From: Nocardioides sp. Soil805
Lineage (GTDB): Bacteria > Actinomycetota > Actinomycetes > Propionibacteriales > Nocardioidaceae
Direction of reading: 5' to 3'
Assembly (NCBI RefSeq): GCF_001429625.1
Contig: NZ_LMSU01000003.1
Span: 145,148 to 209,147, forward strand
DNA: 64,000 bases
Below are positions 4,801 to 19,592 of the stretch, in pieces. Each line of letters starts with the position of its first letter. The first letter of the stretch is position 1. The notes below the pieces were generated by a model that did no database searches, was not told the DNA's origin, and was given only the letters and a program-made list of their open reading frames with translations. The position numbers and the translations under genes were made by a program.

Positions 4801-5232
4801 GTGGTAGCCCTCGACCCCCCGCGCCAGCACCAGCAGGTGGCTGCCCTCGGGGTCGGGCACACCGTTCTGCGGGCCGGTGAGGCCGAGGGAGAGCTCGGCG
4901 CCGAAGACGGTCGGCAGGTCGTACGCCGCCGCGGCCTCGGCGAGCATCGGGGCGGCGTAGAAGCCGTCGTGGTCGGTGACCGCGAGCGCGTGCAGGCCGA
5001 GGCGCACGGCCTCCTCGACGAGCTCGGCCGGCGAGCTGGCACCGTCGAGGAAGCTGAAGTGGCTGTGGCAGTGCAGCTCGGCGTAGGGGGTGACCGCGGC
5101 GGGGCGCTCGATCGACCGGGCCTCGGTGGCGGCGTGCTTGCGTCGCGACACCGGGGCGTCGTCGGCTCCGGGCAGGCCGCTGAGCCGGCGCTCGAGCTCC
5201 TTCCAGTGCATGGCGGGGTTGTTCCAGCCCAT
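1822..5232 (-). CDS. dnaE2: Error-prone DNA polymerase III alpha subunit DnaE2
   Basis: An 1136-aa C-family polymerase, usual length for DnaE2. The N-terminal PHP domain (YAELHCHSHFSFLDGAS, residues ~51-67; AVTDHDGFYAAP) is followed by the polymerase palm with the catalytic aspartates in EEPDIDVDFDSDRREE, a helix-hairpin-helix region near residue 870, and an OB fold at the end (VHVGGLITHRQRPGTAMGVT). DnaE2 does translesion synthesis in SOS mutagenesis together with ImuA' and ImuB. The gene is last in the imuA'-imuB-dnaE2 operon, 27 bp after imuB, and should be driven by the LexA-boxed promoter at about 7.55 kb. DnaE2 rather than the replicative DnaE1 is supported by this context. Confidence 0.95.
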   Translation of the reverse strand: MGWNNPAMHWKELERRLSGLPGADDAPVSRRKHAATEARSIERPAAVTPYAELHCHSHFSFLDGASSPAELVEEAVRLGLHALAVTDHDGFYAAPMLAEAAAAYDLPTVFGAELSLGLTGPQNGVPDPEGSHLLVLARGVEGYHRLAAAMTDAHLRGDEKGRPVYDLEELGERGRGHWVVLTGCRKGAVQQALARGGEAAAAEALDRLTSLFGLEDVLVELSPRPGADATNASLARLAAVHGLDVVAAGNVHHATPQQRRLASAMAAVRARRSLAELDGWLDLSGSAHLRSGAETAAALAAYPHDVGRRAVARSVSLADELAFDLRKASPALPKRQIPDGHTADSWLRVLAERGFAERYAGVPHEREARERLEHELRVIGEKDFAGYFVIVHDIVAFAREQRILCQGRGSAASSAVCYALGITAVDAVFYRLPFERFISAHRDEEPDIDVDFDSDRREEVIQWVYDTYGRRNAAQVANVIAYRPRMAVRDAAKALGFSPGQQDAWSKQIDGWKSVVAGDQGDPDAHDVPPQVVALAEDLMGAPRHLGIHSGGMVLTERPIGEVCPIERARMDRRTVLQWDKDACESMGLVKFDLLGLGMLGALDHMMRLVAEHLGEQWDLATMPKEEPAVYDMLCRADSIGVFQVESRAQIGTLPRLRPREFYDLAIEIALIRPGPIQGGAVHPYVRRATGKEEVTYDHPELVPVLERTKGVPLFQEQLMAMAVTLGDCSRDDADLLRRAMGSKRGVERIESVKQKLYAGMERRGITGDLADSIYVKILSFANFGFAESHALSFALLVYASSWFKLHYPAAFLAGLLRNQPMGFYSPQSLVGDARRHGVDVRRPDVTRSAAQADLEAVVTGPVTATGPDECCRPRFARAEWVPGTPDPVPAHRRDGALAVRLGLDSVRGIGLEVARRIVAARDEAPFTGVTDLSRRAGLTSAQLEALATAGAFDAWGLDRREALWAAGFAEGADHLPGTTPSPAAPTLPGMSEPEITLADLWATGVSPERHPVEHLRDELRSAGIRSVAELATAESGRRVHVGGLITHRQRPGTAMGVTFLNLEDETGMLNVVCSVGVMKAHRHAARNRVAVVIRGRLERNEGVTNLIADKVEGIDVVVPGAGAVLQARASSRDFR

Positions 5233-5259
5233 CAGCGCGTCTCCCGCCCCGCCGGTGCG

Positions 5260-6840
5260 TCAGTCATACGCCGCCTCCAGCGACCAGCCGTCGGGAGCGC
5301 GCACCAGCAGCCACGCGCGTCCGTCGGCACCGACGACCTGGAACCGGGCGGACGGCCCGGTGCCGCCCGACCACCAGCCCTCGTCCGTGGGCCACGGACC
5401 CGCCCACGCGGTGACCGGCTGCCACGGCAGGCCCTGCCCGTCGGTTGCGTCGCGGACCCGGAACCTCCGGGGCTCGCCACTGACGACTCCGCGGTCGGTG
5501 ACGCACACCTCGTGGCCCGCGTCGTCCACGACCTCGGCGGCCGGGGGTGTGGCGAAGACCCGGACGGGCGCCGGACCCGGCACCCGTCCCGGCCACGGCC
5601 GGTCGACGGGACGCAGGTCGACCGCACGCTCGCCCCAGGGGACCAGCGCCTGCCTGGCCGCGGGACTGCGACCGCCCTGCAGCACCGGGCGGCGTACGGC
5701 GTCGAAGCCGACCATGCCCTGCACCCGGGCCACGCCCCGCTCGACGAGGTCGTCGCCCGCGCCACCCCACAGCGCCTCGCCGTGGGCGGCGGCGGGCTCG
5801 ACCACCTCGGGCACGAACCTCACCCGGTCGATCGGGGCGCGCACGGTCCCCGACTCCTTGCGGGCCCGCAGCGAGCCGCCGACCGTCGCGGACTGCAGCT
5901 GCCAGTGCACCCGGTCGACCAGGTCGCGCGCGCCGAAGTGGCGCGGGTGCAGCCAGGTGCGGGTCGAGCAGACGGCACCGTCGGACTCTGCCTCGATCCG
6001 CACCCCGGTGGCGACGAGCTGGTGGTGCGCGAGCTGGGAGACGAGGCGCTCGGCGGTGGTGCGGACGCTGAAGGTGATCGCCTCGACGGAGTCCAGGGGC
6101 GGCTCGAAGGCCACGTCCACGTCGAGCTCGGGGGGCGGGGTGCGGGCGGCGAACAGCGCCCTGTCCTCGCCCCGGGCCCGTCGTCGTACGGCGGCGCCGT
6201 AGGTGCCCAGCCGGTGCTCGACGGCCTGGCCCGGGAGGTCGGCCAGGTCGCCGAGCGTCCGGAGTCCGAGCCGTTGCAGCAGGCCGACCAGCTCCCGTCC
6301 CTGGGGGCCGTCGTCCTGCAGCCGGTGCACGGGCCGGTCCCGCAGGAACGCGGCGGACCCGCCCGCAGGGACGACCGCCCAGGACTGCACGTCCGCGGTG
6401 CGAGCGGCCTGCTCGGCCGTGAACAGGTCGTCGGCGATGCCGAGCCGGACGTCCCAGACGCCGCCGTCCACCACGGCCTGGCACGCCGTCGCGGCCGCGG
6501 CGGTCTCGGTGCCGTACCAGCTGCCGGGTGCCCGGACGGCGAGCAGGCCGGGGCGCAGTGCTGCCACCCCGGGGCGCAGGTCCTCGACCGTGGCCAGGAC
6601 CGGTTCGAAGGCACGGGCGTCGCGATCGGGGTTGGCGGGCAGCAGCGCCAGGTCGGGGCACCGGGCCTGGGCGTCACGGCGGCGCTGGCCCCGACGTACG
6701 CCCTCGGACCGGGCGGGACCGTTGCAGACCTCGACGACGTTGGCCGACAGCACCGCGGCGGGGGAGCGGGGCGACCTCTCGGCCTCGTCGAGCGCGGCGA
6801 CCACGGACCAGTCGGGGCACCACAGCACCATGACCCTCAC
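5260..6840 (-). CDS. imuB: ImuB, catalytically inactive Y-family polymerase-like mutasome subunit
   Basis: The start is taken as the GTG at 6840 (526 aa), giving MRVMVLWCPDWSVVAALDEAE, the usual ImuB opening; it lies 7 bp after imuA'. The N-terminal part follows the DinB/Y-family layout (LPANPDRDARAFEPVLATVE; LGIADDLFTAEQAA; LQRLGLRTLGDLADLP), but the conserved SxDE polymerase motif is replaced by SWYGTE. The protein is therefore probably non-catalytic, as known for ImuB. In mycobacteria ImuB scaffolds the mutasome by binding the beta clamp, DnaE2 and ImuA'. A clear clamp-binding peptide was not spotted. Confidence 0.92.
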   Translation of the reverse strand: MRVMVLWCPDWSVVAALDEAERSPRSPAAVLSANVVEVCNGPARSEGVRRGQRRRDAQARCPDLALLPANPDRDARAFEPVLATVEDLRPGVAALRPGLLAVRAPGSWYGTETAAAATACQAVVDGGVWDVRLGIADDLFTAEQAARTADVQSWAVVPAGGSAAFLRDRPVHRLQDDGPQGRELVGLLQRLGLRTLGDLADLPGQAVEHRLGTYGAAVRRRARGEDRALFAARTPPPELDVDVAFEPPLDSVEAITFSVRTTAERLVSQLAHHQLVATGVRIEAESDGAVCSTRTWLHPRHFGARDLVDRVHWQLQSATVGGSLRARKESGTVRAPIDRVRFVPEVVEPAAAHGEALWGGAGDDLVERGVARVQGMVGFDAVRRPVLQGGRSPAARQALVPWGERAVDLRPVDRPWPGRVPGPAPVRVFATPPAAEVVDDAGHEVCVTDRGVVSGEPRRFRVRDATDGQGLPWQPVTAWAGPWPTDEGWWSGGTGPSARFQVVGADGRAWLLVRAPDGWSLEAAYD

Positions 6841-6847
6841 GAGACCC

Positions 6848-7525
6848 TCACCCGGACGCCTTGCGGATCTCCCGCACGCGACGGTCGACGTCGGAGTCGG
6901 CACGCTGCACCCCCGGCCACGTGAGCTCCGCCTGCCGTGGCGGTCGCGCGCCCCGCCGCAGGGCGACCCGCGCGTGACGCTCCTGGAGGTGTCCCGACCC
7001 GGACGCCGGGCCGCGCCAGCGCGACTCCTCGATGCTGAGCCGCGCCTCGACGCGCGGCCAGTCGCCGTGCACGACGAGCACCCCGGAGCGCGTGCGCAGA
7101 CGCGAGTCGAGGATGCCGGCCGTGCGCTCGTCGACGCGAGCCGGCGGGCGCAGGACGACCACCCGCAGCACGTCGACCAGAGCCGCGGTCACCTCCAGCC
7201 AGTGCTCGCCGGGATCGGGAACCAGGACCGTGCGCGACAGCTCGATCCCGAGCTCCGCGGCGGCCTCCACGCCGAAGTCGGCGCACCCGGCGAACCCGAC
7301 CCACTCGCCGGCCTGCGAGGCCCCGGCGGCCAGGGCGAGGGCCAGCGAGGCCGAGTCGACGGCGTACGTCGCTCCCGCGTGCAGGGGCACCAGGCTCGCC
7401 AGTCCCGGCAGCGTGGCGATGGGCTGCGTGGCAGGCTTGCGCTCCATGGCCGCGACCCGCTCGCGCAGCTGCTCGACCACCGGACGACCGGGGTCGAGCG
7501 CGGGGAGGGAGCGGCTGGTCGACAC
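6848..7525 (-). CDS. imuA': ImuA', RecA-like mutasome accessory protein
   Basis: A 225-aa protein, first in the damage-inducible operon. It has the ImuA'/SulA-RecA-like core (PIATLPGLASLVPLHAGATY, then LVLVPDP-like and VVVLRPPARVDERTAGILDSR segments) and lacks a good Walker A motif. In mycobacteria the homologue interacts with ImuB and is needed for DnaE2-dependent mutagenesis. The start is GTG at 7525. No strong ribosome site is present, and the LexA box begins only 10 bp upstream of it. Confidence 0.88.
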   Translation of the reverse strand: MSTSRSLPALDPGRPVVEQLRERVAAMERKPATQPIATLPGLASLVPLHAGATYAVDSASLALALAAGASQAGEWVGFAGCADFGVEAAAELGIELSRTVLVPDPGEHWLEVTAALVDVLRVVVLRPPARVDERTAGILDSRLRTRSGVLVVHGDWPRVEARLSIEESRWRGPASGSGHLQERHARVALRRGARPPRQAELTWPGVQRADSDVDRRVREIRKASG

Positions 7526-7834: not shown

Positions 7835-7950
7835 GACCCGCCACCCCCGAGATCTCCGTTGCCGGAGGCCAACCTAGACCGCGCTCGCCCCGTCGTCACG
7901 GACCTGCGTCCTCGCGACCGCCCGACTCCTGGGACCATGGGCCCCCCGGA

Positions 7951-8067
7951 CTACTCGTCGCCTCGTTTGGACCGGAAGTACGCGAGGAGAACGCCCCCAC
8001 CGATGATGACGAGGAAGGTCAGGGAAAGGATCAGGTAGACACCGGTGCTGGTGATCATTGCGAACAT
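7951..8067 (-). CDS. 38-aa single-pass membrane peptide
   Basis: A short reading frame starting MFAMITSTGVYLILSLTFL, with one hydrophobic helix followed by a basic end (YFRSKRGDE). The ATG is preceded by AAAGAGGTG at a suitable distance, which supports translation. It lies just downstream of the DUF1269 gene in the same direction (41 bp) and is probably cotranscribed. Function unknown. Confidence 0.55.
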   Translation of the reverse strand: MFAMITSTGVYLILSLTFLVIIGGGVLLAYFRSKRGDE

Positions 8068-8108
8068 GCGGCCCGCACCTCTTTTCGGTCCTCGTGGGGA
8101 AGGGGCAG

Positions 8109-8672
8109 TCAGGCGTCGGTCTGCTGGGCTTCCTTGGCTGCCGCCTTGATGTCGTCGGCCTCGACCTTGTCGATGGCTGATTCGACGATGGCGTCGGCGC
8201 GCTCGAGCGCCTGCCGGATCTTGACGGCACCCGGGTCGGAGACGAGGGCGAGCAGGCCGGAGTGCCCGGGTGGGATCGCGTCCTCGAGCTGCTGCTCGAG
8301 CTCGCCGTGGTGGTGGCGCTGTCGCAGCTTGCCGGCGAGAGCGCCGGCGCTGCCGACCACGGCAGCGCTGCCGAGGATCGACGGCGGGAAGATCACGCCG
8401 AGGGCGATGCCGCCCACCACGCCCCACTTGAGTCCCGACTTCGTGCTGTGGTCGGTCGCCTTCTGGATCTCCAGCTTGCCCTCCGCGGAGCGGTTGACCA
8501 CGATGACGCCTTCGATCTCGACGGTGCGGCCGTCCTCGACGGACTTGAGGGCCTCGTAGGCCTCCCACGCGGTGCTGGTGTCGCTGAAGTCCGCGACGAG
8601 GAGGGTGTACGCGCCGTCGGAGACCGCGGCCGCCCTGACGTCCTGCTCGGGTGTGGTGTTCTCGTCTGACAT
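8109..8672 (-). CDS. DUF1269 family protein
   Basis: A 187-aa protein with the DUF1269 layout: a short alpha/beta start (DGAYTLLVADFSDTSTAWEA), VEIEGVIVVNRSAEGKLEI, a glycine-rich hydrophobic hairpin (WGVVGGIALGVIFPPSILGS), then a charged half ending in a Glu/Ala/Lys helix. Such proteins are common in actinobacterial general-stress regions, but their role is not established. An AGGAGAG site precedes the ATG. The neighbours are other small membrane or envelope proteins in the same direction. Confidence 0.8.
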   Translation of the reverse strand: MSDENTTPEQDVRAAAVSDGAYTLLVADFSDTSTAWEAYEALKSVEDGRTVEIEGVIVVNRSAEGKLEIQKATDHSTKSGLKWGVVGGIALGVIFPPSILGSAAVVGSAGALAGKLRQRHHHGELEQQLEDAIPPGHSGLLALVSDPGAVKIRQALERADAIVESAIDKVEADDIKAAAKEAQQTDA

Positions 8673-8746: not shown

Positions 8747-9142
8747 TCAGGCGAGGGCCTTGGCCTTCAGGGTGGCGAACTCGCTCTCGTCGATGACGCC
8801 GGAGTCGAGGAGCTCCTTGGCATGGGCGATCTGCTCCGCGGACGAGGTCGGCGTGGCGGCGACCTGCTTGATGTAGTCGGCCTGGGCGGCCTGGAGCTCC
8901 TTGGCCTTGGCCACCTGTCGTTCGGTCATGCTGCGGCCGCGGGCGATCAGGTAGATCAGGGCGCCGACCCAGGGCACGAAGATGAGGAGCACGGCCCATC
9001 CGGCCTTGCCCCAGCCGCTGAGGGTGTGGTCGCCGAACAGGTCGAACAGGCAGCGGAACCAGACCATGAGGGCCGCGATCCAGATGAAGAACCAAAAGGA
9101 CCACAGGAGCACTTCTCCGAAGTCGTTGGTCATGGCGTCCAT
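8747..9142 (-). CDS. PLDc_N/SHOCT domain membrane protein
   Basis: A 131-aa protein with two TM helices (LLWSFWFFIWIAALMVWFRC and WAVLLIFVPWVGALIYLIAR) matching the phospholipase-D-nuclease N-terminal membrane domain. It ends in a SHOCT motif (SSAEQIAHAKELLDSGVIDE, then SEFATLKAKALA). SHOCT is thought to mediate oligomerisation. The function is unknown, though the architecture is common in actinobacteria. GGGAGG lies upstream of the ATG. The gene is divergent from the redox operon that starts at 9329. Confidence 0.85.
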   Translation of the reverse strand: MDAMTNDFGEVLLWSFWFFIWIAALMVWFRCLFDLFGDHTLSGWGKAGWAVLLIFVPWVGALIYLIARGRSMTERQVAKAKELQAAQADYIKQVAATPTSSAEQIAHAKELLDSGVIDESEFATLKAKALA

Positions 9143-9328: not shown

Positions 9329-9877
9329 ATGGGCGGACGAGGTGGCGCAGCCACGCAACCGGGGATCAGAGTGGGGCCGACGAGCGAGTTCAGCCTGTTC
9401 TTCCGGGTCAAGGCCGGCCAGGCACAGCCGTTGCGGGCGGCGTTGCTCGCTCTCCAGGACACTCCCGGGTATCGACCCGGCGACTACGGGATGGCGATCC
9501 AGACGATCCACGAGGCGCGCTTCGTGCTGTTCGACGACGACACCCGGCTGGCGTTCATCACGAGCTTCGACGGTCCGTGGGACGCCTACATGGAGGACTT
9601 CTTCACCTCCGGGCCCACGCTGGCGCTGTTCGACGTCATCTTCGGCCATGTGGAGGGGTACGACGGGCTGCCCGATGTCGCGGCCGTGCGTGCGTTCGTC
9701 CTCGGTGCGGAGCAGACGGCCGCCGCGTACGCCCGGAACTACGGCGGGACGGTGAAGGAGATCCGGACGGCGCAGCGTGTGAATGCCGCGTTCCAGCAGG
9801 TGCTCGACCACCCGGAGGCCGCGGAGGCTCTCCAGCATCCAGCACTGCAGCCCTTGCTGGACGAGGCCGCCGTCTAA
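9329..9877 (+). CDS. Uncharacterised protein, possible ferredoxin-like alpha/beta fold
   Basis: The start at 9329 (182 aa) is chosen because GGGGAGGA precedes that ATG. The sequence opens with TSEFSLFFRVKAGQAQPLRA and contains ARFVLFDDDTRLAFITSFDG, a beta-alpha-beta pattern resembling dimeric alpha/beta-barrel or DyP half-domains. No catalytic motif was recognised. It is the first gene of a tight five-gene operon (gaps 19-31 bp) with DUF4331, DyP peroxidase, a crotonase and a sulfite-oxidase-type enzyme, so a redox-related role is inferred. Confidence 0.65.
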   Translation: MGGRGGAATQPGIRVGPTSEFSLFFRVKAGQAQPLRAALLALQDTPGYRPGDYGMAIQTIHEARFVLFDDDTRLAFITSFDGPWDAYMEDFFTSGPTLALFDVIFGHVEGYDGLPDVAAVRAFVLGAEQTAAAYARNYGGTVKEIRTAQRVNAAFQQVLDHPEAAEALQHPALQPLLDEAAV

Positions 9878-9902
9878 CGCCGGCCGAGACAGGACCCAAC
9901 TC

Positions 9903-11051
9903 ATGTCTGACCACATCTCGGGGCCACGTGCCCTGGCGGATCCGATCGCGGACATCACGGACGTCTACGCCTTTCCGAGCCCCGAGGTCGCAGGTCGCCT
10001 CGTCCTCGTCCTCAACACCCTGCCGATGGCCAGACCCACCGACCTGTTCTCCGCAGGACTGATCTACCGCTTCCGCCTGCGAGCGCTGACCTCGCCCGAG
10101 AGCGGTGGGTCCGGGTGGCTGTTCGTCCCTGGACCGGAGGAACTGGTCCTGGACTGCGTCTTCGATCCTCCGCAGCACGTGCCTGCTCGGGGCGCGGGCC
10201 AGTCGGAGCACCAGCAGCACGGCAGCTGCACGACACCAGCGGGGGAGCCGGTATCTTTCCGCGTCGACGACGAGCAGGGGGGCGTGGGACGGGGCATCCG
10301 TGTCTTCGCCGGACTGCGGTGGGACCCGTTCATCATGGACGCCCGCGCGGCCCTGGCCACGATCGCGACCGGCAAGCTCGCCTTCACCGACCCCGGGTCG
10401 ATCTTCCTCGACGGCAAGAACGTGCTGAGCATCGTGGTCGAGATCGACACGGAGCTCCTGGCGGACTGGGTGCTCGTCGGAGTCGTGGCCGAGACCCTGA
10501 CCCGTGGCGAGTTCAACGTCCGGATCGAACGGGCGGGACGCCCCGAGGTGAAGAACATGATGCTCGCGCCGAAGCAGTTCGACCCCGTCAACCGGGACCT
10601 GGAGATCCGTGACCTGTACAACATGGACGACGCGTTCCACCTCGGAGAGGCGTATCTCGGCGCCTTCAGGGCGCGGCTGGATGCCAACCTCGCCTTCTGG
10701 GACGGCCTCGACGGGCAGCAGGACTGGCCGACCGGCGAGAGCGGCGGGCACCCGCTCACCGACCTGATGCTCGCCGACTACCTCGTCCTCGACGTCACCA
10801 AGCCGTACGTCGAGCAGGGGTCGTTCCTGGAGATCGAGCTCGCCGCGCGACGGGCGGAGGCGCACGTGACCTGCGGTGGCCGGACGTTGAACGACGACGT
10901 CATGGACACGATCTTCACCCAGCTCGTCAACGCCGGCCGTGGCCCCACCATCCGCGACGGCGTCGACGCCGCCACCCGGCCGGGCACGGTCACCTTCCCC
11001 TACCTGGCGTCGCCCAACCCGGACCCGCCCGAGCCTCCCGAGCACCACTGA
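9903..11051 (+). CDS. DUF4331 domain protein
   Basis: A 382-aa protein starting MSDHISGPRALADPIADITD, a typical DUF4331 opening, with DVYAFPSP and LVLVLNTLP following. Later segments include DPGSIFLDGKNVLSIVVEID and LGEAYLGAFRARLDANLAFW. There is no signal peptide, whereas many DUF4331 proteins are exported. The biochemical role is unknown. It is second in the five-gene redox operon, 25 bp after the first gene and 19 bp before the peroxidase, and ends in a Pro/Glu/His tail. Confidence 0.8.
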   Translation: MSDHISGPRALADPIADITDVYAFPSPEVAGRLVLVLNTLPMARPTDLFSAGLIYRFRLRALTSPESGGSGWLFVPGPEELVLDCVFDPPQHVPARGAGQSEHQQHGSCTTPAGEPVSFRVDDEQGGVGRGIRVFAGLRWDPFIMDARAALATIATGKLAFTDPGSIFLDGKNVLSIVVEIDTELLADWVLVGVVAETLTRGEFNVRIERAGRPEVKNMMLAPKQFDPVNRDLEIRDLYNMDDAFHLGEAYLGAFRARLDANLAFWDGLDGQQDWPTGESGGHPLTDLMLADYLVLDVTKPYVEQGSFLEIELAARRAEAHVTCGGRTLNDDVMDTIFTQLVNAGRGPTIRDGVDAATRPGTVTFPYLASPNPDPPEPPEHH

Positions 11052-11070
11052 CCGAGGAAGGGGGCTGAGG

Positions 11071-12426
11071 GTGGAGGACGCCATGGAGGGCGGCATGGAG
11101 AACGCATCCTTGGAGCTCGACGACATCCAGGCCGGAGCGTTGTTCGAGCGCCCCTCGCCGTACGTCGGCACCTACCTGCTGCTGCGCATCGCCGACCGTG
11201 CCGACGGCCGCGAGCTCGTACGGCGGCTGCACCGCTTGGCCATTCCGGCGTCGGGAGCCGGCTCCGCGGACGACACATCGATCACTGTCGCCTTCACCTA
11301 CCGAGGGCTGGAGGCGCTCGGGGTGCCGCAGACGTCGTTGGACAGCTTCGCCCCGGAGTTCAAGCAGGGGATGGCTGCCCGTGCCGAGATCCTCGGCGAC
11401 ACCGGTGAAAGTGGACCCGACCACTGGGAGAAGCCGCTGGGTACTGCCGAGGTCCACGTCGCCGTCGCGGTGCTCTCCTCCGACGAGGCCACGCTCCAGG
11501 CCGTCGCCGAGCGGGCTCGCGATGCCCACGCCGAGCTTCCCGGGGTCGACCTGATCTGGAGACAGGACTGCTACCAGCTCGCCACCGGACGCACCTCCTT
11601 CGGGTTCAAGGACGGCATCGGGCAACCCGCGGTCGAGGGGAGCGGCCGACCCCCCTCCAACCCGCGCGAGCGACCTCTCCGGGCTGGGGAGATCATCCTC
11701 GGCTACCCCGACGAGACGGGTGAGCTGCCGCCCATGCCCACCCCACCGGAGCTGGGTCGCAACGGCACGTACGTGGTGTTCCGCAAGCTCCACACGAAGG
11801 TCGCTGCCTACCGGAGCTACCTGCGTGACCGGGCCACGACGCGCGCTGAGCGGGATCTTCTCGCCGCGAAGATGGTCGGGCGCTGGCAGAGCGGCGCACC
11901 CCTCGCCGTCTCCCCGGACGCCGACGACCCCGAGCTGGGGAGCGACCCCCGGCGCAACAACGACTTCCTCTACGCCGACGACCCGAGCGGTTTCAAGTGC
12001 CCGGTGGGTGCCCACGCACGCCGGGCCAATCCGCGGGACGCGCTGGACGGAGAAGGCAGCGTGGACGTCCGGCTCCACCGGATGGTCCGGCGCGGCACCA
12101 GCTACGGACCGATGCTCCCCGACGGCGTCACCGAGGACGACGGCGTCGACCGCGGCATCATCTTCGTCTTCGCGGGCGCCCACCTGAAGCGCCAGTTCGA
12201 GTTCGTCAAGACCCAGTGGCTCAACGACGGCATCTTCATCGGTGCGCCGCTCGAGTCCGACCCCCTTGTCGGGCCGCACCACGACTCGACCCGCTTCACG
12301 ATCGCCCGACGTCCGATCCGCCGGAGGCTCCAGGACCTTCCGCCCTTCGTGATCACCCGCGGTGGCGAGTACTGCTTCGCCCCCGGCCTGAGCGCGCTCC
12401 GCTGGCTCGCCGACCTGGACACGTGA
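11071..12426 (+). CDS. DyP-type heme peroxidase
   Basis: About 451 aa from the GTG at 11071, which has AAGGGGG upstream; Met starts at 11083 or 11095 are possible. The DyP signature GFKDG (residues ~178-182, catalytic Asp) and the heme-ligand region PVGAHARRANPR (His ~315) are both present. DyP enzymes oxidise substrates with hydrogen peroxide. No Tat signal and no encapsulin-targeting tail are seen, so it looks cytoplasmic. It is third in the operon with DUF4331, a crotonase and a molybdoenzyme; the physiological substrate is unknown. Confidence 0.92.
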   Translation: MEDAMEGGMENASLELDDIQAGALFERPSPYVGTYLLLRIADRADGRELVRRLHRLAIPASGAGSADDTSITVAFTYRGLEALGVPQTSLDSFAPEFKQGMAARAEILGDTGESGPDHWEKPLGTAEVHVAVAVLSSDEATLQAVAERARDAHAELPGVDLIWRQDCYQLATGRTSFGFKDGIGQPAVEGSGRPPSNPRERPLRAGEIILGYPDETGELPPMPTPPELGRNGTYVVFRKLHTKVAAYRSYLRDRATTRAERDLLAAKMVGRWQSGAPLAVSPDADDPELGSDPRRNNDFLYADDPSGFKCPVGAHARRANPRDALDGEGSVDVRLHRMVRRGTSYGPMLPDGVTEDDGVDRGIIFVFAGAHLKRQFEFVKTQWLNDGIFIGAPLESDPLVGPHHDSTRFTIARRPIRRRLQDLPPFVITRGGEYCFAPGLSALRWLADLDT

Positions 12427-12451
12427 GGACGTCACCGAGAGAGGAAGCACC

Positions 12452-13312
12452 ATGAGCTCATCCAGCACGGACCGTTGGGCAGCACTCGACTTCGGCCCGC
12501 CCGCGCCCGACGTCGAGGAGACCGAGGCACCCGTTCTCCTGGACTACCTCTCCGAGGGTCGCGTGGCGGTGATCACCCTGAACCGACCCCACGCCGACAA
12601 CGCGATCACCACCGAGATGGGTGCCCTGCTGACCGAGGTGGTCGAGGAGATCGCGGTTCGTACCCACGTCCGGGTGGTCGTCCTGACCGGCGCCGGTGAG
12701 CGCGCTTTCTCGGTGGGAAGCGACCTGCGGCAACGCAAGGCGATGACCAAGGAGGACTGGCTGCGCCAGCGCCAGGCTTTCGACCGGACCCTGTACACGG
12801 TCCGCCAGCTGCGCAAGCCGATCTTCGCCGCCGTCAACGGGATCGCCTACGGGGGAGGCTGCGAGCTCGCGCAGAGCACCGACTTCATCATCGCCTCGAC
12901 CAACGCGACCTTCGGCCAACCGGAGGCCATGCTCGGTCTGGCGGCCGGTGGCGGGTCACCTGCCCTCCTGCCCCGGCTCCTCCCGCGCGGCAGGGCCCTG
13001 CAGATGCTCCTGACCGGCGACCCGGTCGCGGCCCCGGAGGCCTACCGGATCGGGCTGGTGAACGAGCTCCACGACCCTTCGGAGCTGATGTCGGCGGCGC
13101 GGGGGATCGCCGACAAGATCGCCGGCAACTCGCCGACCGCCGTCCAGTCCGTCAAGCGTGCGGTGCAGCTGGGCGAGGGGCAGCCGATCGAGCAGGCGAT
13201 CGCGATCATGATGGACGCGCATTGGCGCTCCGCGGTGCATCCCGACCGCATCGAGGGCATCGGCGCCTTCAACGACGGCCGCGAACCGACCTTCGACGAC
13301 TCCGATTTCTGA
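12452..13312 (+). CDS. Enoyl-CoA hydratase/isomerase family protein
   Basis: A 286-aa crotonase-fold protein. VAVITLNRPHADNAITTEMG, the oxyanion-hole segment AFSVGSDLRQRK, NGIAYGGGCELAQSTDFIIA and FGQPEAMLGLAAGGGSPALL are the family landmarks, and both acidic positions are present (E in GCEL and in QPEA). It should act on an acyl-CoA. A ~30-residue extension precedes the core. It lies fourth in the redox operon, 25 bp after the peroxidase and 31 bp before the sulfite-oxidase-like gene. The substrate cannot be deduced. Confidence 0.9.
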   Translation: MSSSSTDRWAALDFGPPAPDVEETEAPVLLDYLSEGRVAVITLNRPHADNAITTEMGALLTEVVEEIAVRTHVRVVVLTGAGERAFSVGSDLRQRKAMTKEDWLRQRQAFDRTLYTVRQLRKPIFAAVNGIAYGGGCELAQSTDFIIASTNATFGQPEAMLGLAAGGGSPALLPRLLPRGRALQMLLTGDPVAAPEAYRIGLVNELHDPSELMSAARGIADKIAGNSPTAVQSVKRAVQLGEGQPIEQAIAIMMDAHWRSAVHPDRIEGIGAFNDGREPTFDDSDF

Positions 13313-13343
13313 GGACCTCCACCCGACCCTAGGAGACAGATCC

Positions 13344-14423
13344 ATGACCGTCGCTGATGACCTCGAGGCGGCACGCGCCGCCCTGGTGATGATCAACCCG
13401 GCGCCCTACAACGCCGAGGCACCGCCGGCCGCTCTCGTCGGCGACGTCACCCCCACCGAGCTCCACTACGTGCGGAGCAACTTCGCCGTGCCCGATCACG
13501 ACGGCACCCTCGAGATCGGCGGCGCGGTCGGCGTCCCGATGAGCCTGACCCTCGACGACCTCCGTTCCCTGCCCGCGCACGACCACACCGTCACCCTCGA
13601 GTGCGCCGGCAACGGTCGCCTGGACATGCGGCCCCTGCCGACGGGAGAGCCCTGGGGCGACTTCGCCGTCTCGACCGCCCGCTGGACCGGGGCGCTCCTG
13701 CACGAGGTGTTGGCCAAGGTCGCCCCCGCTGCGGAGGGGGTCGAGGTCGTCGCCCACGGCGCCGACCACGGCCCGTACCACCTCCAGGCGATCCTTCCCG
13801 AGACCGACCAGGACGAGCTCACCTTCGCCCGTGCCCTGGCGATCGGCGAGGCCATGGACCCGGCGTCGGGGATCCTCATCGCCTACGAGATGAACGGCCA
13901 ACCGCTCGGACGCGACCACGGGGCACCGTTCCGACTGATCGTCCCTCACTGGTACGCCGTCGCGTCCGTGAAGTGGCTGAAGCGTCTCGACGTCCTCACC
14001 GAGCCCTACGCCGGCGAGTTCCAGACCGGCCACTACATCTACCAGTGGCCGGACCGACCCCACGAGCCGGTGACCCTGATGCGGGTACGCGCCCGGATCA
14101 CCGACCCTGCGCCCGGCTCCACGGTCGACGCCGACACCTGCACCGTCCGGGGCAAGGCGTGGTCCGGGACCGGCCCCGTCGTTGGCGTGGACGTCAGCCT
14201 CACCGGGGAGGGCGACTGGCAGCCCGCACGGCTCGAGCCACCTCGAGGCGACTACCAGTGGCAGGACTGGAGCTTCACCTGGGACTCGATCGGTGTCGGT
14301 CGGCACACCCTGCGGGCCAGGGCGACCGACGCCGCCGGAAACGTGCAACCCGACGTGCCGCCGTGGAACCGACTCGGCTACGGCAACAACGCCATCGAGG
14401 TCATCTACGTCGACCGTCGTTGA
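13344..14423 (+). CDS. Sulfite-oxidase-family molybdopterin enzyme
   Basis: A 359-aa protein with the SUOX catalytic domain: GVPMSLTLDDLRSLP, VTLECAGNGR (Cys87, expected molybdenum ligand), MNGQPLGRDHGAPFRLIVPH and VKWLKRLDVL. A C-terminal dimerisation domain of the Mo-co type follows (ARITDPAPGSTVDADTCTV onward). There is no heme b5 domain and no signal peptide. Family members oxidise sulfite or reduce S-/N-oxides. The electron partner is not evident. AGGAGAC precedes the ATG. It is the last gene of the five-gene operon and converges on the MMPL gene. Confidence 0.9.
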   Translation: MTVADDLEAARAALVMINPAPYNAEAPPAALVGDVTPTELHYVRSNFAVPDHDGTLEIGGAVGVPMSLTLDDLRSLPAHDHTVTLECAGNGRLDMRPLPTGEPWGDFAVSTARWTGALLHEVLAKVAPAAEGVEVVAHGADHGPYHLQAILPETDQDELTFARALAIGEAMDPASGILIAYEMNGQPLGRDHGAPFRLIVPHWYAVASVKWLKRLDVLTEPYAGEFQTGHYIYQWPDRPHEPVTLMRVRARITDPAPGSTVDADTCTVRGKAWSGTGPVVGVDVSLTGEGDWQPARLEPPRGDYQWQDWSFTWDSIGVGRHTLRARATDAAGNVQPDVPPWNRLGYGNNAIEVIYVDRR

Positions 14424-14494: not shown

Positions 14495-16675
14495 TCAGAG
14501 CGGGACGAGCTCCTCCGGGCGGGGATCCGCCGTCCGGTCGTCGGGCACGGTCGGGAGGTGCTGGTCGGCACCCTCGACGTCGAGGACCGGCAGGACACGG
14601 TCCAGCCACCGGGGCAGCCACCAGTTGGCGTCGCCGAGCAGCGACATGGTCGCGGGCACCAGGACCATGCGGACCAGGGTGGAGTCGATCGCGATGGCGG
14701 TCGCCAGCCCGAGGCCGAGCATCTTCAGCGACGGTATCGGGCTGCCGACGAAGCTGAGGAAGACGGCGATCATGATGAGCGCGGCCGAGGTGATGATCCG
14801 TCCCGTCCCGGCCAGGCCGCGGGCGACCGACTCGGCGTTGTCACCGGTCGCGGCGTACTCCTCCCGGATGCGCGAGAGCAGGAAGACCTCGTAGTCCATC
14901 GAGAGCCCGAAGAGGATCGGGAACATGATCACGACGATGATCGAGGTGATGGGGGTCGGCCCCTCGAGTCCCAGGAGCTCCGCTCCCCAGCCCCACTGGA
15001 AGACCATGACCAGCACTCCGTACGCCGCGCCGATCGAGAGCAGGTTCATCACGGCTGCCTTCAGCGGGACCGCCACGGACCGGAAGAGGAGCATCAGCAG
15101 GAGGAACGAGATCCCGATCACGGCGCCGACGAAGAGCGGGAGGGTCTTCCCCAGCTGGGTGTTCAGGTCGTCGGTGATCGCGGTGATCCCCGAGACATAG
15201 GTGTGGTCCGGGATGACCGACCGGACACGATCGATGGTGGCCGAGGTCTCGGCGTCGGCCGGACCACCGTCGGGAAGGGCGCTGAACACGACCGTGCTGC
15301 CGTCGGCGGAGGTCCGGGGCTCGCCCACGGACACGATGCCCGGGACGTCCGCGATCGTCGCCGACACCCTCGCCACGTCGTCGGCCCCGACGGCCGAGGA
15401 CTCGCGGTCCATCACGATCGTGAGCGGGGCGTTGAACCCGATGCCGAAGCCCTCGGTGAGGAGGTCGTACGCCTGGCGGTGGGTGGTGTGCGTGGGGGCG
15501 TCACCCGCCGCCGGGAAGGCGGTCTGGATCGACAGGGCGGGCACGGCGAGAGCGGCCAGCACGGTGACCGAACCGAGGAGGTAGGGCCAGGGGCGACGCG
15601 ACACGTGGTGGCCGAACCGCCACCAGCGGCTCTCCTCGGTGCGGACGGCGGGGCGGTGGCGTCGTACGACCCGGCCGGAGTCGATCCGGTCACCGAGCAG
15701 GGTGAGCAGGGCGGGGAGCAGGGTCACGGCTGCCGCGACGGCGCTCAGCACCATCAGGGCGGTGGCGAGCCCGATCGAGGTCAGGATGCCCAGGCCCGTG
15801 ATGCCCAGCGCCGCGGTCGCGATCATCACGGTCCCGCCCGCGAAGACCACCGCGGTGCCGGAGGTGCTCATCGCACCGGACAGGGCTCGGGTGTTGTCCT
15901 GGCCCGCCGACCGGTTCTCCCGGTAGCGGGCGACGACGAACAGCGCGTAGTCGACGCCCACGCCCAGCCCGACCAGTCCGGCCACGGCGATGGCGGAGAC
16001 CGACACGTCCATCGTGCCGGCCATCAGCATGATGCCTCCGATGGAGGCGCCGACGGCGACGAGGGACAGCCCGATCGGCACGATCGCCGCGACGGCCGTC
16101 CCGAAGACGACGAGCAGCACGACCAGGGCCACGAGCAGGCCGATCGCGGTGTGGGACGAGGTCTCGTCCGCGGCGTTGAGGAAGACGGCGTCGCCCCCGA
16201 GCTCGACCTGGAGGTCGGGGGACCCCATCGAGGAGACGGCCTCGGACAGGACCGCGAACGCCGGCTTGCCGATCTCGCGCTCGGGCGAGTCGAGGGTCAT
16301 GACGGCGTACCCGATCCGCCCGTCCTCGGAGATCGTGCCGGCCGTGAACGGGTCGGCCACCGACTCGACGCGGGCGACGCCGGACGCGTCGTCGAGGACC
16401 CGCGCGATCTCGTCCCGGTGCTCGTCGAGCGTCGTGCCCTCGCGAGCCGCGAGCACGACCATGGCCGACCCCTTGGCGGCCTCGGGGAAGCCGTCGTCGA
16501 GCAGCTCCAGCGCCGTGGCGCTCTGGCTGTCCGGCGCGGAGAAGTCGTCGACGAACGTGCCTCCGACCGCGATGGCCAGGAAGAAGACCGCCCCTGTGAC
16601 GGCGAGCCAGCCGGTGATGGTGCGCCACGGGTGCCTGGCGCTGGCGGACGCAATGCCGCGAGTGAGCTTCTGCAT
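14495..16675 (-). CDS. MMPL/RND family transporter
   Basis: A 726-aa membrane protein with the MMPL layout: TM1 after MQKLTRGIASASARHPWRT, an extracytoplasmic domain, five TM helices (VALVVLLVVFGTAVAAIVPI onward, with GVDYALFVVARYRE), then a second domain and six more helices with LSMDYEVFLLSRIREEY. The paired GxDYxxF/MDYEVF segments are the proton-relay regions of this family. The substrate is unknown. The start at 16675 is preferred over one 45 bp upstream because a GAAGGG site precedes it. It is divergent from a LAL regulator, which is the likely controller. Confidence 0.92.
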   Translation of the reverse strand: MQKLTRGIASASARHPWRTITGWLAVTGAVFFLAIAVGGTFVDDFSAPDSQSATALELLDDGFPEAAKGSAMVVLAAREGTTLDEHRDEIARVLDDASGVARVESVADPFTAGTISEDGRIGYAVMTLDSPEREIGKPAFAVLSEAVSSMGSPDLQVELGGDAVFLNAADETSSHTAIGLLVALVVLLVVFGTAVAAIVPIGLSLVAVGASIGGIMLMAGTMDVSVSAIAVAGLVGLGVGVDYALFVVARYRENRSAGQDNTRALSGAMSTSGTAVVFAGGTVMIATAALGITGLGILTSIGLATALMVLSAVAAAVTLLPALLTLLGDRIDSGRVVRRHRPAVRTEESRWWRFGHHVSRRPWPYLLGSVTVLAALAVPALSIQTAFPAAGDAPTHTTHRQAYDLLTEGFGIGFNAPLTIVMDRESSAVGADDVARVSATIADVPGIVSVGEPRTSADGSTVVFSALPDGGPADAETSATIDRVRSVIPDHTYVSGITAITDDLNTQLGKTLPLFVGAVIGISFLLLMLLFRSVAVPLKAAVMNLLSIGAAYGVLVMVFQWGWGAELLGLEGPTPITSIIVVIMFPILFGLSMDYEVFLLSRIREEYAATGDNAESVARGLAGTGRIITSAALIMIAVFLSFVGSPIPSLKMLGLGLATAIAIDSTLVRMVLVPATMSLLGDANWWLPRWLDRVLPVLDVEGADQHLPTVPDDRTADPRPEELVPL

Positions 16676-16743
16676 GATCGTGCCCTTCGGGAGTGGGGGT
16701 GCCGGGTCGGCCTGCTGCATGGCCGGAACCTAGGGACGGACGT

Positions 16744-16844: not shown

Positions 16845-19592
16845 ATGGAACGGGTCATGCCGCACCCGCTGATCGAGACCAAGCTCTACCTGCCGTCGCC
16901 GCGGCCCGGACGCGTGGCGCGTCCGCGCCTGCGCGAGCGACTCGACCGAGGGCTCGCGGCGAAGCTCCTGGTGGTCTCGGCCCCGGCCGGCTTCGGGAAG
17001 ACCACCCTGCTGGTCGACTGGCTGGCGTCCGCCGGCGGGGCGCGCGACGGCGAGCAGGTCCGCGGGGCGTGGCTGGCCCTCGACGCGGCGGACAACGATC
17101 CCGCACGGTTCTGGCGCTACGTGGTGGGCGCCCTGCGCACGGTTCTTCCGGGCGTCGGCCAGGACGCGCTCGGACTCCTGGAGGACTCGCGGCCACCGGC
17201 CGTGGAGCTGGTGCTGACCACGCTCCTCAACGAGCTCTCGGCGCTCGACCTGGACACCGTCCTCGTGCTGGACGACTACCACGTCATCGATGCACCCCCC
17301 GTCCACGAGGGGATGGCCTTCCTCCTCGCCCACCTGCCCGCCCGCCTGCACCTGGTGCTCGCCACGAGGAGCGACCCACCCCTTCCGCTGCCGCGACTGC
17401 GTGCCAGCGGCGACCTCGTCGAGGTCCGGGCCGCCGACCTCCGCTTCACGGCGCAGGAGGCGGCGTCGTACCTGAACGACGTCATGGGACTCGAGCTGGG
17501 ACCGGACGACGTGCACGCGCTCGAGGGCCGGACGGAGGGCTGGATCGCCGCCCTGCAGCTCGCCGCACTGTCCATGACCGGCCGCACGGACGTGTCCGGC
17601 TTCATCGCCGGCTTCACCGGCGACGACAGGTACGTCGTCGACTACCTCGTCGAGGAGGTGCTGCAGCGACTGCCTGTCGACCTCCGGGACTTCCTGCTGC
17701 GGACCTCCGTCCTCGACCGGATGACCGGCTCGCTGTGCAACGCCCTGACCGGACGGGTGGACGGTCGCAGCGTGCTCGAGGCGCTGGAGCGGGACAACCT
17801 GTTCGTGGTCCCCCTGGACGATCGTCGTCACTGGTACCGCTACCACCACCTCTTCGCGGACGTCCTGCGCGGGAGGCTCCTGGACGAGCAGCCGGGCGTG
17901 GTGACGGGGCTGCACACGACGGCTGCGACCTGGTACGAGCAGCAGGGCGACGTCGAGGAGGCGATCCGGCACTCGCTGCTCGGCGAGGACTTCGAGCGTG
18001 CGGGGGAGCTCGTCGAGACGGTCCTGCCGGCGTTCCGGAGGGACCGTCGCGAGGCGACCCTGCGGGGATGGCTCGAGGCCCTGCCGCGACCGGTCCTGCA
18101 GGACCGTCCGATCCTCGGCAACGCCCTGGCGGGTGCCCGGATGTCCACCGGGGAGTTTGACGGCGTCGACGACCTGCTGGACGCGACCGAGGAGTGGATG
18201 CGCGGCGTTGGCCACGCGCTGGAGGGGCGAGCCCGAGGAGCCGCCGTGGACGAGGAGTACCGGCGCCTGCCCGCCGACCTGGCAGTCCACCGGGCGGGTC
18301 TCGCGCTGGTGCGCGGCGACGTCGAGCAGACGGTGACGCACGCACGCGCCGCGCTCGACCTGGTGGGGGAGGAGGACCACGTGTCCCGGGGGGCCGCCCT
18401 CGCGCTGGGTGGACTGGCCGCGTGGTCGACCGGGGACCTGGAGACCGCGCACACGGCCTACGCTGCGTGCCTGGTCGAGTTCGAGCTCATCGACCACGTC
18501 TCGGACGTGCTGGGCTGCTCCATCACCCTGGGTGACATCGAGGTCGTCCAGGGTCGACTGCGCAGCGCCGCGCGCACCTATCGAGCAGCCCTGGACCTGG
18601 CCGACCGCCACCACAGGCCGGTGCTGCGGGGCCGTGCCGACATGCACGTCGGGCTGGCCGCCCGACACCTCGAGGCCGACGACCTCGCCGCGGCTCGTCA
18701 GGAGCTCGCCCGATGTCGCGAGCTGGGGGAGTCCGCGGGTCTCCCGCAGGACGCCTACCGCTGGCGCGTGGTCCTGGCCGGGATCTGCGAGGCGGAGGGT
18801 GACGTCGAGGGTGCTGTCGATCTCCTCGACGAGGCCGAGCGGCTCTACGTGGGCGACTTCTCGCCCCCTGTCCGACCGGTCCCGGCGGTCCGCGCCAGGA
18901 CGTGGGCCAGGCACGGGGCGGTCGACGCCGCCCTCGACTGGGCCGACCGGGTCGGCCTGTCCCTCGACGACCCCCTGAGCTACCTGCGCGAGTTCGAGCA
19001 CCTGACGCTGGCGAAGGTGCTGGTGGCCGACGCGCGGCACCACGAGGGCGGCGACCTGTCCCTCGTGGTCACCTTCCTCGACCGGCTGCTCGAGGCCGCC
19101 ACCGAGGGGGGACGGGGCGGATCGGTCGTCGAGATCCAGGTGACCCGCGCCCTGGCCCTCCAGCAGCTCGGCGACGACGAGGGGTCCGTGCGAGCACTCG
19201 CCGCGGCCCTCGGGCTCGCGGAGCCGGAGGGGTACGTCCGCACCTTCCTCGACGAGGGTGTACCCATGGCCACCCTGCTGGCCGCGGTCGAGCGGCGCGC
19301 GCCCTCGGCGTACGTGCGCCGCCTGCGGTCGGCGTCCTCCCCGGCTCCGGCGACGCAGCCGGTCCCGAGGCGGTCGGGGTCCGCCCACGTCGTGCCGGTC
19401 GAGCCCCTGAGCACGCGCGAGCGCGACGTGCTCCGCCTCCTGGACACCGAGCTGAACGGTCCGGAGATCGCCCGCGAGCTCGTGGTCTCGCTGAACACGG
19501 TGCGCACCCACACCAAGAACCTGTACATGAAGCTCGGCGTGACGAGCCGCCGCGCGGCCGTCCGGCGCGGCAGGGAGCTGGACCTGCTCTGA
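16845..19592 (+). CDS. LuxR-family ATP-binding (LAL/MalT-like) transcriptional regulator
   Basis: A 915-aa regulator. The N-terminal STAND-type ATPase has Walker A APAGFGKTT (residues 46-54) and a Walker B-like VLVLDDYHVIDAPP. A long TPR-like helical middle follows, and the C-terminal LuxR HTH reads LSTRERDVLRLLDTELNGPE then NTVRTHTKNLYMKLGVTSRR. LAL/MalT proteins activate transcription when ligand and ATP are bound. The ligand is unknown. GAGGAGGAAGG is a strong ribosome site. The divergent MMPL gene and the downstream 88-aa and MOSC genes are candidate targets, because similar palindromes flank the regulator on both sides. Confidence 0.92.
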   Translation: MERVMPHPLIETKLYLPSPRPGRVARPRLRERLDRGLAAKLLVVSAPAGFGKTTLLVDWLASAGGARDGEQVRGAWLALDAADNDPARFWRYVVGALRTVLPGVGQDALGLLEDSRPPAVELVLTTLLNELSALDLDTVLVLDDYHVIDAPPVHEGMAFLLAHLPARLHLVLATRSDPPLPLPRLRASGDLVEVRAADLRFTAQEAASYLNDVMGLELGPDDVHALEGRTEGWIAALQLAALSMTGRTDVSGFIAGFTGDDRYVVDYLVEEVLQRLPVDLRDFLLRTSVLDRMTGSLCNALTGRVDGRSVLEALERDNLFVVPLDDRRHWYRYHHLFADVLRGRLLDEQPGVVTGLHTTAATWYEQQGDVEEAIRHSLLGEDFERAGELVETVLPAFRRDRREATLRGWLEALPRPVLQDRPILGNALAGARMSTGEFDGVDDLLDATEEWMRGVGHALEGRARGAAVDEEYRRLPADLAVHRAGLALVRGDVEQTVTHARAALDLVGEEDHVSRGAALALGGLAAWSTGDLETAHTAYAACLVEFELIDHVSDVLGCSITLGDIEVVQGRLRSAARTYRAALDLADRHHRPVLRGRADMHVGLAARHLEADDLAAARQELARCRELGESAGLPQDAYRWRVVLAGICEAEGDVEGAVDLLDEAERLYVGDFSPPVRPVPAVRARTWARHGAVDAALDWADRVGLSLDDPLSYLREFEHLTLAKVLVADARHHEGGDLSLVVTFLDRLLEAATEGGRGGSVVEIQVTRALALQQLGDDEGSVRALAAALGLAEPEGYVRTFLDEGVPMATLLAAVERRAPSAYVRRLRSASSPAPATQPVPRRSGSAHVVPVEPLSTRERDVLRLLDTELNGPEIARELVVSLNTVRTHTKNLYMKLGVTSRRAAVRRGRELDLL

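Follow-up and report, generated by a model that had tools for sequence, protein, structure and literature searches.

A conserved five-gene operon joining a DyP-type peroxidase and an undescribed partner family to a crotonase and a sulfite-oxidase-fold molybdoenzyme

What might a heme peroxidase, a crotonase and a sulfite-oxidase-fold molybdoenzyme do together in one operon? The question arises from a 64,000-nucleotide stretch of the Nocardioides sp. Soil805 genome (contig NZ_LMSU01000003.1, positions 145,148 to 209,147; hereafter the window), in which a preliminary description had marked a block of five closely spaced genes on one strand with no exported products. We found all five open reading frames (ORFs) on the forward strand at 9329-14423, with intergenic gaps of 25, 31 (19 if the third gene uses a possible GTG start), 25 and 31 bp, matching the 19-31 bp described. 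In order they encode P1, a 182-residue protein of an undescribed family (9329-9877, with GGGAGG 5' of its ATG); a short, non-exported DUF4331 protein of 382 residues (9903-11051); a putative DyP-type heme peroxidase of 447 residues (11083-12426, or from a GTG at 11071); a 286-residue crotonase, or enoyl-CoA hydratase family protein (12452-13312); and a 359-residue molybdoenzyme of the sulfite oxidase (SUOX) fold with no export signal (13344-14423). We saw no strongly hydrophobic segment and no twin-arginine motif at the N-terminus of any of the five, in keeping with the claim that none is exported. Since a divergent gene (8747-9142, reverse strand) bounds the block upstream and a convergent gene for an MMPL family transporter (14495-16720, reverse strand) bounds it downstream, we regard it as a closed unit of five genes. 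A scan in and around the block for sigma-70-like promoters and intrinsic terminators found none, which says little at 70% GC.

The preliminary description had named occurrence in this strain alone as a finding that would refute it. The arrangement is not so confined, and its recurrence is far beyond chance. A genome scan with P1 as the sole query returned 33 loci, and in 28 of these the complete set recurred with gene order and strand unchanged but with flanks that were not conserved. Other forms were also seen: L052 has all five genes, although its contig ends within the last, the contig of L054 stops after the second gene, L056 has four genes and no fifth in the remaining 1.3 kb of contig, L066, from an Acidimicrobiales metagenome-assembled genome (MAG), has P1 followed directly by DyP, and L065 holds the set internally rearranged. 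In this last locus, from Rhodococcus sp. ARC_M6, the segment with P1, DUF4331 and DyP (3980-6802) is broken and partly inverted, which points to decay of the copy or to faulty assembly. Four further five-gene regions came from whole genomes, some species of which may overlap with those of the P1 scan. Hosts of the set include Nocardioides, Jiangella, Arthrobacter, Kribbella, Solirubrobacter, Leifsonia, Occultella, Oerskovia, Actinomycetospora, Terrabacter, Streptomyces and Paractinoplanes, and it also occurs in MAGs labelled Chloroflexi and Acidobacteria, for which binning errors are possible. Median gaps in the other loci were 26, 8, 26 and 41 bp. Across these loci no flanking gene family was broadly shared and none recurred beyond a few, on which ground we rejected a dedicated regulator or transporter for the operon.

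When prevalence was counted within the strain's own family, order and phylum, a close DUF4331 relative was present in 7 of the 198 family genomes, and P1-family matches occurred in 17 of 294 genomes at the level of the order and in 11 of 396 at that of the phylum. This rare and patchy occurrence therefore suggests that the spread of the five-gene set reflects horizontal transfer and loss. Pairwise distances among the five proteins were correlated (Mantel r 0.78-0.93, p 0.001, 26 loci), and the nonsynonymous rate (dN) was well below the synonymous rate (dS) for every gene (dN/dS about 0.08-0.34, Nei-Gojobori), so all five are under purifying selection. The proposal that the five products act together is thus well supported, because their order is kept across genera despite the patchiness, they diverge together and selection maintains them.

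Is the unit really one of five genes? The block is there, as the preliminary description held, but the widespread core proved to be P1 with DyP, a pair that also forms part of the locus of DrDyP, the Deinococcus radiodurans DyP. Each of the 33 plasmid records that matched P1 also matched a DyP of the window type, usually immediately adjacent, and among the loci examined P1 was next to a class C/V DyP in practically all. Loci found through DyP or DUF4331 likewise had a P1-type gene beside or near DyP (Terrarubrum, Granulicella, Nostoc, and Rhizobium ACO-34A, T136 and CC1099, the P1 match being weak in the last two). The third partner varies and may be a catalase-like protein, an unclassified 337-residue protein, DUF4331, a P450 or a patatin. 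The 337-residue protein, with no Pfam match, belongs to a conserved unclassified family (L071 6953-7966; L075 7383-8411; L092-L095); wherever the pair was seen in Streptomyces, Nostoc and one other family of actinobacteria, this protein was its third partner. We considered whether one shared third subunit was going under several names and rejected this, as profile comparisons of the catalase-like, 337-residue and DUF4331 families gave probabilities <1%. An apparent P1-DyP fusion at L097, a 1192-residue ORF over both matches, was also set aside as no more than an open frame in high-GC DNA, DyP there having its own 507-residue ORF.

In a tree of 66 DyP sequences, those from five-gene loci formed one clade of 31 tips (support 0.86) nested inside the P1-DyP family, which makes the five-gene operon a derived form. 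Our tentative preference, held at rather less than firm confidence, is to see it as a functional operon that arose in actinobacteria from a wider module of P1 and DyP. The wider module is apparently undescribed, and the operon brings enzyme families that are already known into a conserved combination which, like the partner family P1, is undescribed. In the open literature we found no paper on P1, DUF4331 or the five-gene set, subscription literature lying outside the search; with subscription journals mostly outside, the open literature also held none joining a DyP-type peroxidase, sulfite oxidase and enoyl-CoA hydratase, and none joining oleate hydratase and a Dyp-type peroxidase.

What kind of peroxidase stands at the core? 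The window DyP scored 117.2 bits against TIGR01413 (cut-off 100.5) and also matched Pfam DyP_N, and its best solved relatives were 8re3/8re2 (E 1e-123). GFKDG at 174-178 (K or R in the third place), H311 and R336/R337 were kept in 26 of 26 DyPs, and we assign the protein to the class C/V DyPs (DrDyP group) as a predicted heme peroxidase. We take DrDyP to be the product of DRA0145, on the basis of the locus tag and of the matching gene order in the D. radiodurans locus L067; neither of the two papers cited below states so. DrDyP was described as class C within class V and as low-spin and inactive at pH 7.5, and its authors called its physiological substrate and its activation open (PMC10820274).

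A peroxidase paired with catalase-like proteins raises the thought of defence against oxidative stress, in which P1-DyP would scavenge hydroperoxides and the other genes, without forming a pathway of their own, would mend or remove what had been oxidised. A catalase-like protein is indeed the third partner in many P1-DyP relatives, and in D. radiodurans DRA0145 and the adjacent catalase-like DRA0146 were both raised after ultraviolet C (UVC)/vacuum (PMC5731708). However, the five-gene form has no catalase, scavenging needs no crotonase and SUOX-type enzyme in fixed order, DrDyP is inactive at neutral pH (PMC10820274) and the operon is rare and patchy, so we hold simple defence to be somewhat unlikely.

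P1 itself had no match in Pfam, NCBIfam or PHROG, and a PDB sequence search with it gave no credible relative; one of the 19 members of the P1 family alignment touched ABM at E 0.05. The preliminary description had called the first protein ferredoxin-fold-like, and our model (mean predicted local distance difference test score, pLDDT, 73; moderate confidence) agrees with this, predicting a ferredoxin-like, dimeric alpha+beta barrel domain and a helical tail. For this model the nearest folds were ABM/SchA-like, mutarotase and NIPSNAP barrels (Foldseek best E 4e-4), and VIA-align superposed it on several barrels at Z 7-8 and 2.9-3.3 Å over ~100 residues. H61, R64, D69, D81, D85, Y87 and D90 were invariant in the family alignment, and H61, R64, D81, D85, Y87 and D90 may line a binding site. 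At L128 two P1 domains share one open frame, which would suit a barrel that acts in dimeric form. L069, L120 and L123 each contain a pair of P1 genes, and the Streptomyces NBC_01340 plasmid (L139) carries two copies ~6.6 kb apart (1241-1882 and 7876-8517) with equal identity and score against the window P1.

Could P1 be an enzyme in its own right? As a cofactor-free enzyme of the ABM/SchA type it might belong to a small pathway that tailors or breaks down a compound of aromatic or polyketide-like nature; its best fold matches are ABM/SchA-like WhiE-ORFI, polyketide cyclases and decarboxylases, aromatics are commonly oxidised by DyPs in the literature, and FUSC/aromatic-exporter-type genes lie near two relatives. 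Against this, a common fold does not show function and the five genes have neither transporters nor core biosynthesis genes as conserved neighbours, and we judge such a pathway distinctly unlikely.

The crotonase matched ECH_1 (PF00378, E 3e-51), and both catalytic Glu positions, in GGGcELA and in FGQPEAMLG, were invariant in 26 of 26; all 25 named NCBIfam equivalog models listed for it fell below cut-off, the best being EchA19 at 217 of 400 bits. The molybdoenzyme matched Oxidored_molyb (PF00174, E 9e-45), Mo-co_dimer (PF03404) and chicken sulfite oxidase (E 2e-46), and its Mo-ligand Cys87 was invariant in all 26. In pairwise sequence alignment it keeps R138, R190, W204 and Y322 of the chicken sulfite oxidase pocket, but K200 is replaced by T, V or A and R450 by L or I in all 26 proteins, so the full pocket (R138, R190, K200, W204, Y322, R450) is not present. 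Scores against the SorA, SorT and SoxC models of NCBIfam (166/600, 153/570 and 164/420 bits) were below all cut-offs. Given the loss of the K200 and R450 equivalents and these low scores, the protein should not be called a sulfite oxidase, and plain sulfite is, judged from the pocket residues, not the obvious substrate. The earlier suggestion of a sulfur-dependent modification is weakly supported, as these two pocket residues are absent. That the operon is a sulfite or organosulfur oxidation unit, with DyP removing the H2O2 made by a sulfite oxidase, is very unlikely, for although the fold, the dimer domain and Cys87, R44, R92, W104 and Y231 match those of sulfite oxidase, the K200 and R450 replacements in 26/26, the scores far below the SorA, SorT and SoxC cut-offs and the lack of conserved cytochrome or sulfur genes near the five genes all oppose it.

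The window DUF4331 protein exceeded the PF14224 cut-off (91.2 bits against 27; E 1e-25) in two partial stretches, and it has neither a full-length single PF14224 match nor a signal peptide, unlike the second copy in the same genome. That copy (contig C2, L136 6264-7754) is canonical, covering PF14224 positions 1-421 with a hydrophobic N-terminus, and is followed by what by eye appear to be a TPR-like protein and a HupE/UreJ-like membrane protein; TPR and HupE/UreJ genes also lie downstream of the DUF4331 fusion of Sinorhizobium chiapasense (L069). Foldseek hits for the window protein were antibody chains with probabilities up to 0.06, which we discarded as meaningless because the model was too weak. 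The DUF4331 alignment had 25 members. All six plasmid relatives of the window protein adjoin a DyP of the window DyP's family, so DUF4331 joined DyP either repeatedly or early.

Neighbours of the wider family hint at a substrate class. In Agrobacterium and Roseomonas the P1-DyP genes lie near those for a TetR regulator, 3-hydroxyacyl-CoA dehydrogenase, acyl-CoA thioesterase, oleate hydratase and a catalase-like protein; 3-hydroxyacyl-CoA dehydrogenase is also found near them in Deinococcus and Acinetobacter, patatin or thioesterase in Sphingomonas, patatin in L098 and a P450 near some relatives, and DUF4331 occurs among relatives with an acetoacetate-decarboxylase-like (ADC-like) protein and an SDR, or fused to a domain of lipid-transport type. 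Because TetR, oleate hydratase, 3-hydroxyacyl-CoA dehydrogenase, acyl-CoA thioesterase, patatin, P450, ADC-like and SDR genes recur nearby, we link P1-DyP to fatty acids. The peroxide-dependent acyl modification put forward as a possibility in the preliminary description fits this genomic company.

From sequence and context, then, we tentatively propose that the operon may oxidise a fatty-acid-like compound through P1-DyP, the crotonase and the SUOX-type enzyme, a reading we hold to be the likeliest of those considered, though at rather less than firm confidence. P1, a barrel of the same general fold class as DyP domains, would bind or assist DyP, and the two would form a cytosolic peroxidase unit in which H2O2 or an organic hydroperoxide oxidises a hydrophobic acyl or lipid-derived compound. 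The crotonase would then hydrate or isomerise the product as a CoA ester, the SUOX-type enzyme would act next, by two-electron oxidation or oxygen transfer, with something other than free sulfite as its substrate, and the short DUF4331 protein would probably have no catalytic part but serve for binding or as a scaffold. In the cell, the operon would allow oxidised fatty-acid-like molecules to be used or detoxified. Several points weigh against this proposal. The lipid neighbours come from relatives with other third partners and not from the five-gene loci, whose flanks are unconserved; co-divergence reflects joint inheritance, is expected of any linked block and does not on its own prove that the proteins work together; confidence in the P1 model is middling, and for the DUF4331 model (pLDDT 62.5) there was no meaningful fold match; and DrDyP, the only studied close relative we found, is inactive alone at pH 7.5 (PMC10820274).

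A bolder proposal turns that last point around: in bacteria of many phyla, P1 would serve class C/V DyPs as their own activator or second subunit, which would account for the inactivity of DrDyP by itself at neutral pH. The five-gene operon would be an acyl oxidation pathway, driven by peroxide and not known before, in which DyP works with a SUOX-fold enzyme whose substrate specificity is new. That both parts hold we consider doubtful. What DyPs oxidise in the cell is a question that the field acknowledges, and since P1 is a conserved partner beside essentially every member of this branch and the downstream enzymes are fixed in one clade, the question becomes testable. The operon further brings to light an enzyme of the SUOX fold whose pocket is altered, and gives a gene context for DUF4331, a family with no function paper in the open literature searched.

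Other genes near the operon in the window were noted in passing. The MMPL-family gene downstream is not conserved beside the five genes in other loci, nor is a 915-residue MalT/LuxR-type regulator further downstream (16845-19592, forward strand) kept beside them elsewhere. Upstream, translations judged by eye only suggested an ImuB-type Y-family polymerase (5260-6903) and an ImuA-like RecA-type protein (6848-7525), both on the reverse strand.

How does the operon compare with systems already known? The SUOX-type protein shares the Mo-binding and dimerisation domains and the Mo-ligand Cys with the sulfite oxidase family (chicken and plant sulfite oxidases, SorA, SorT, SoxC) and differs in having no heme domain, export signal or K200/R450 equivalents and in scoring under the SorA, SorT and SoxC cut-offs. 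In the rhizobial loci of Sinorhizobium chiapasense, Bradyrhizobium CB82 and Rhizobium CC1099, DyP is followed by a DUF4331 of the window type, but with no crotonase or SUOX, and in two of them DUF4331 is fused to an SRPBCC-type domain; other rhizobial DyP-DUF4331 loci have a xanthine-oxidase-type molybdoenzyme, or an ADC-like protein and an SDR. In the catalase-P1-DyP loci of alphaproteobacteria, such as Agrobacterium pusense and Roseomonas mucosa, P1 immediately precedes a DyP from the window DyP's family; their third partner is catalase-like and their neighbours are TetR, thioesterase, 3-hydroxyacyl-CoA dehydrogenase and oleate hydratase genes. Closest among characterised proteins is DrDyP (DRA0145, PDB 8RE2/8RE3), ~45% identical over 96% of the window DyP. 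It differs in that Met replaces the last Gly of GXXDG, where the window family has GFxDG in 26/26, and in that a catalase-family gene comes next in place of the crotonase and SUOX genes; it agrees in its proximal His and distal Asp/Arg, which are kept in the window DyP, and in the gene that immediately precedes it in D. radiodurans, which encodes a P1 homologue and bears no annotation beyond hypothetical protein.

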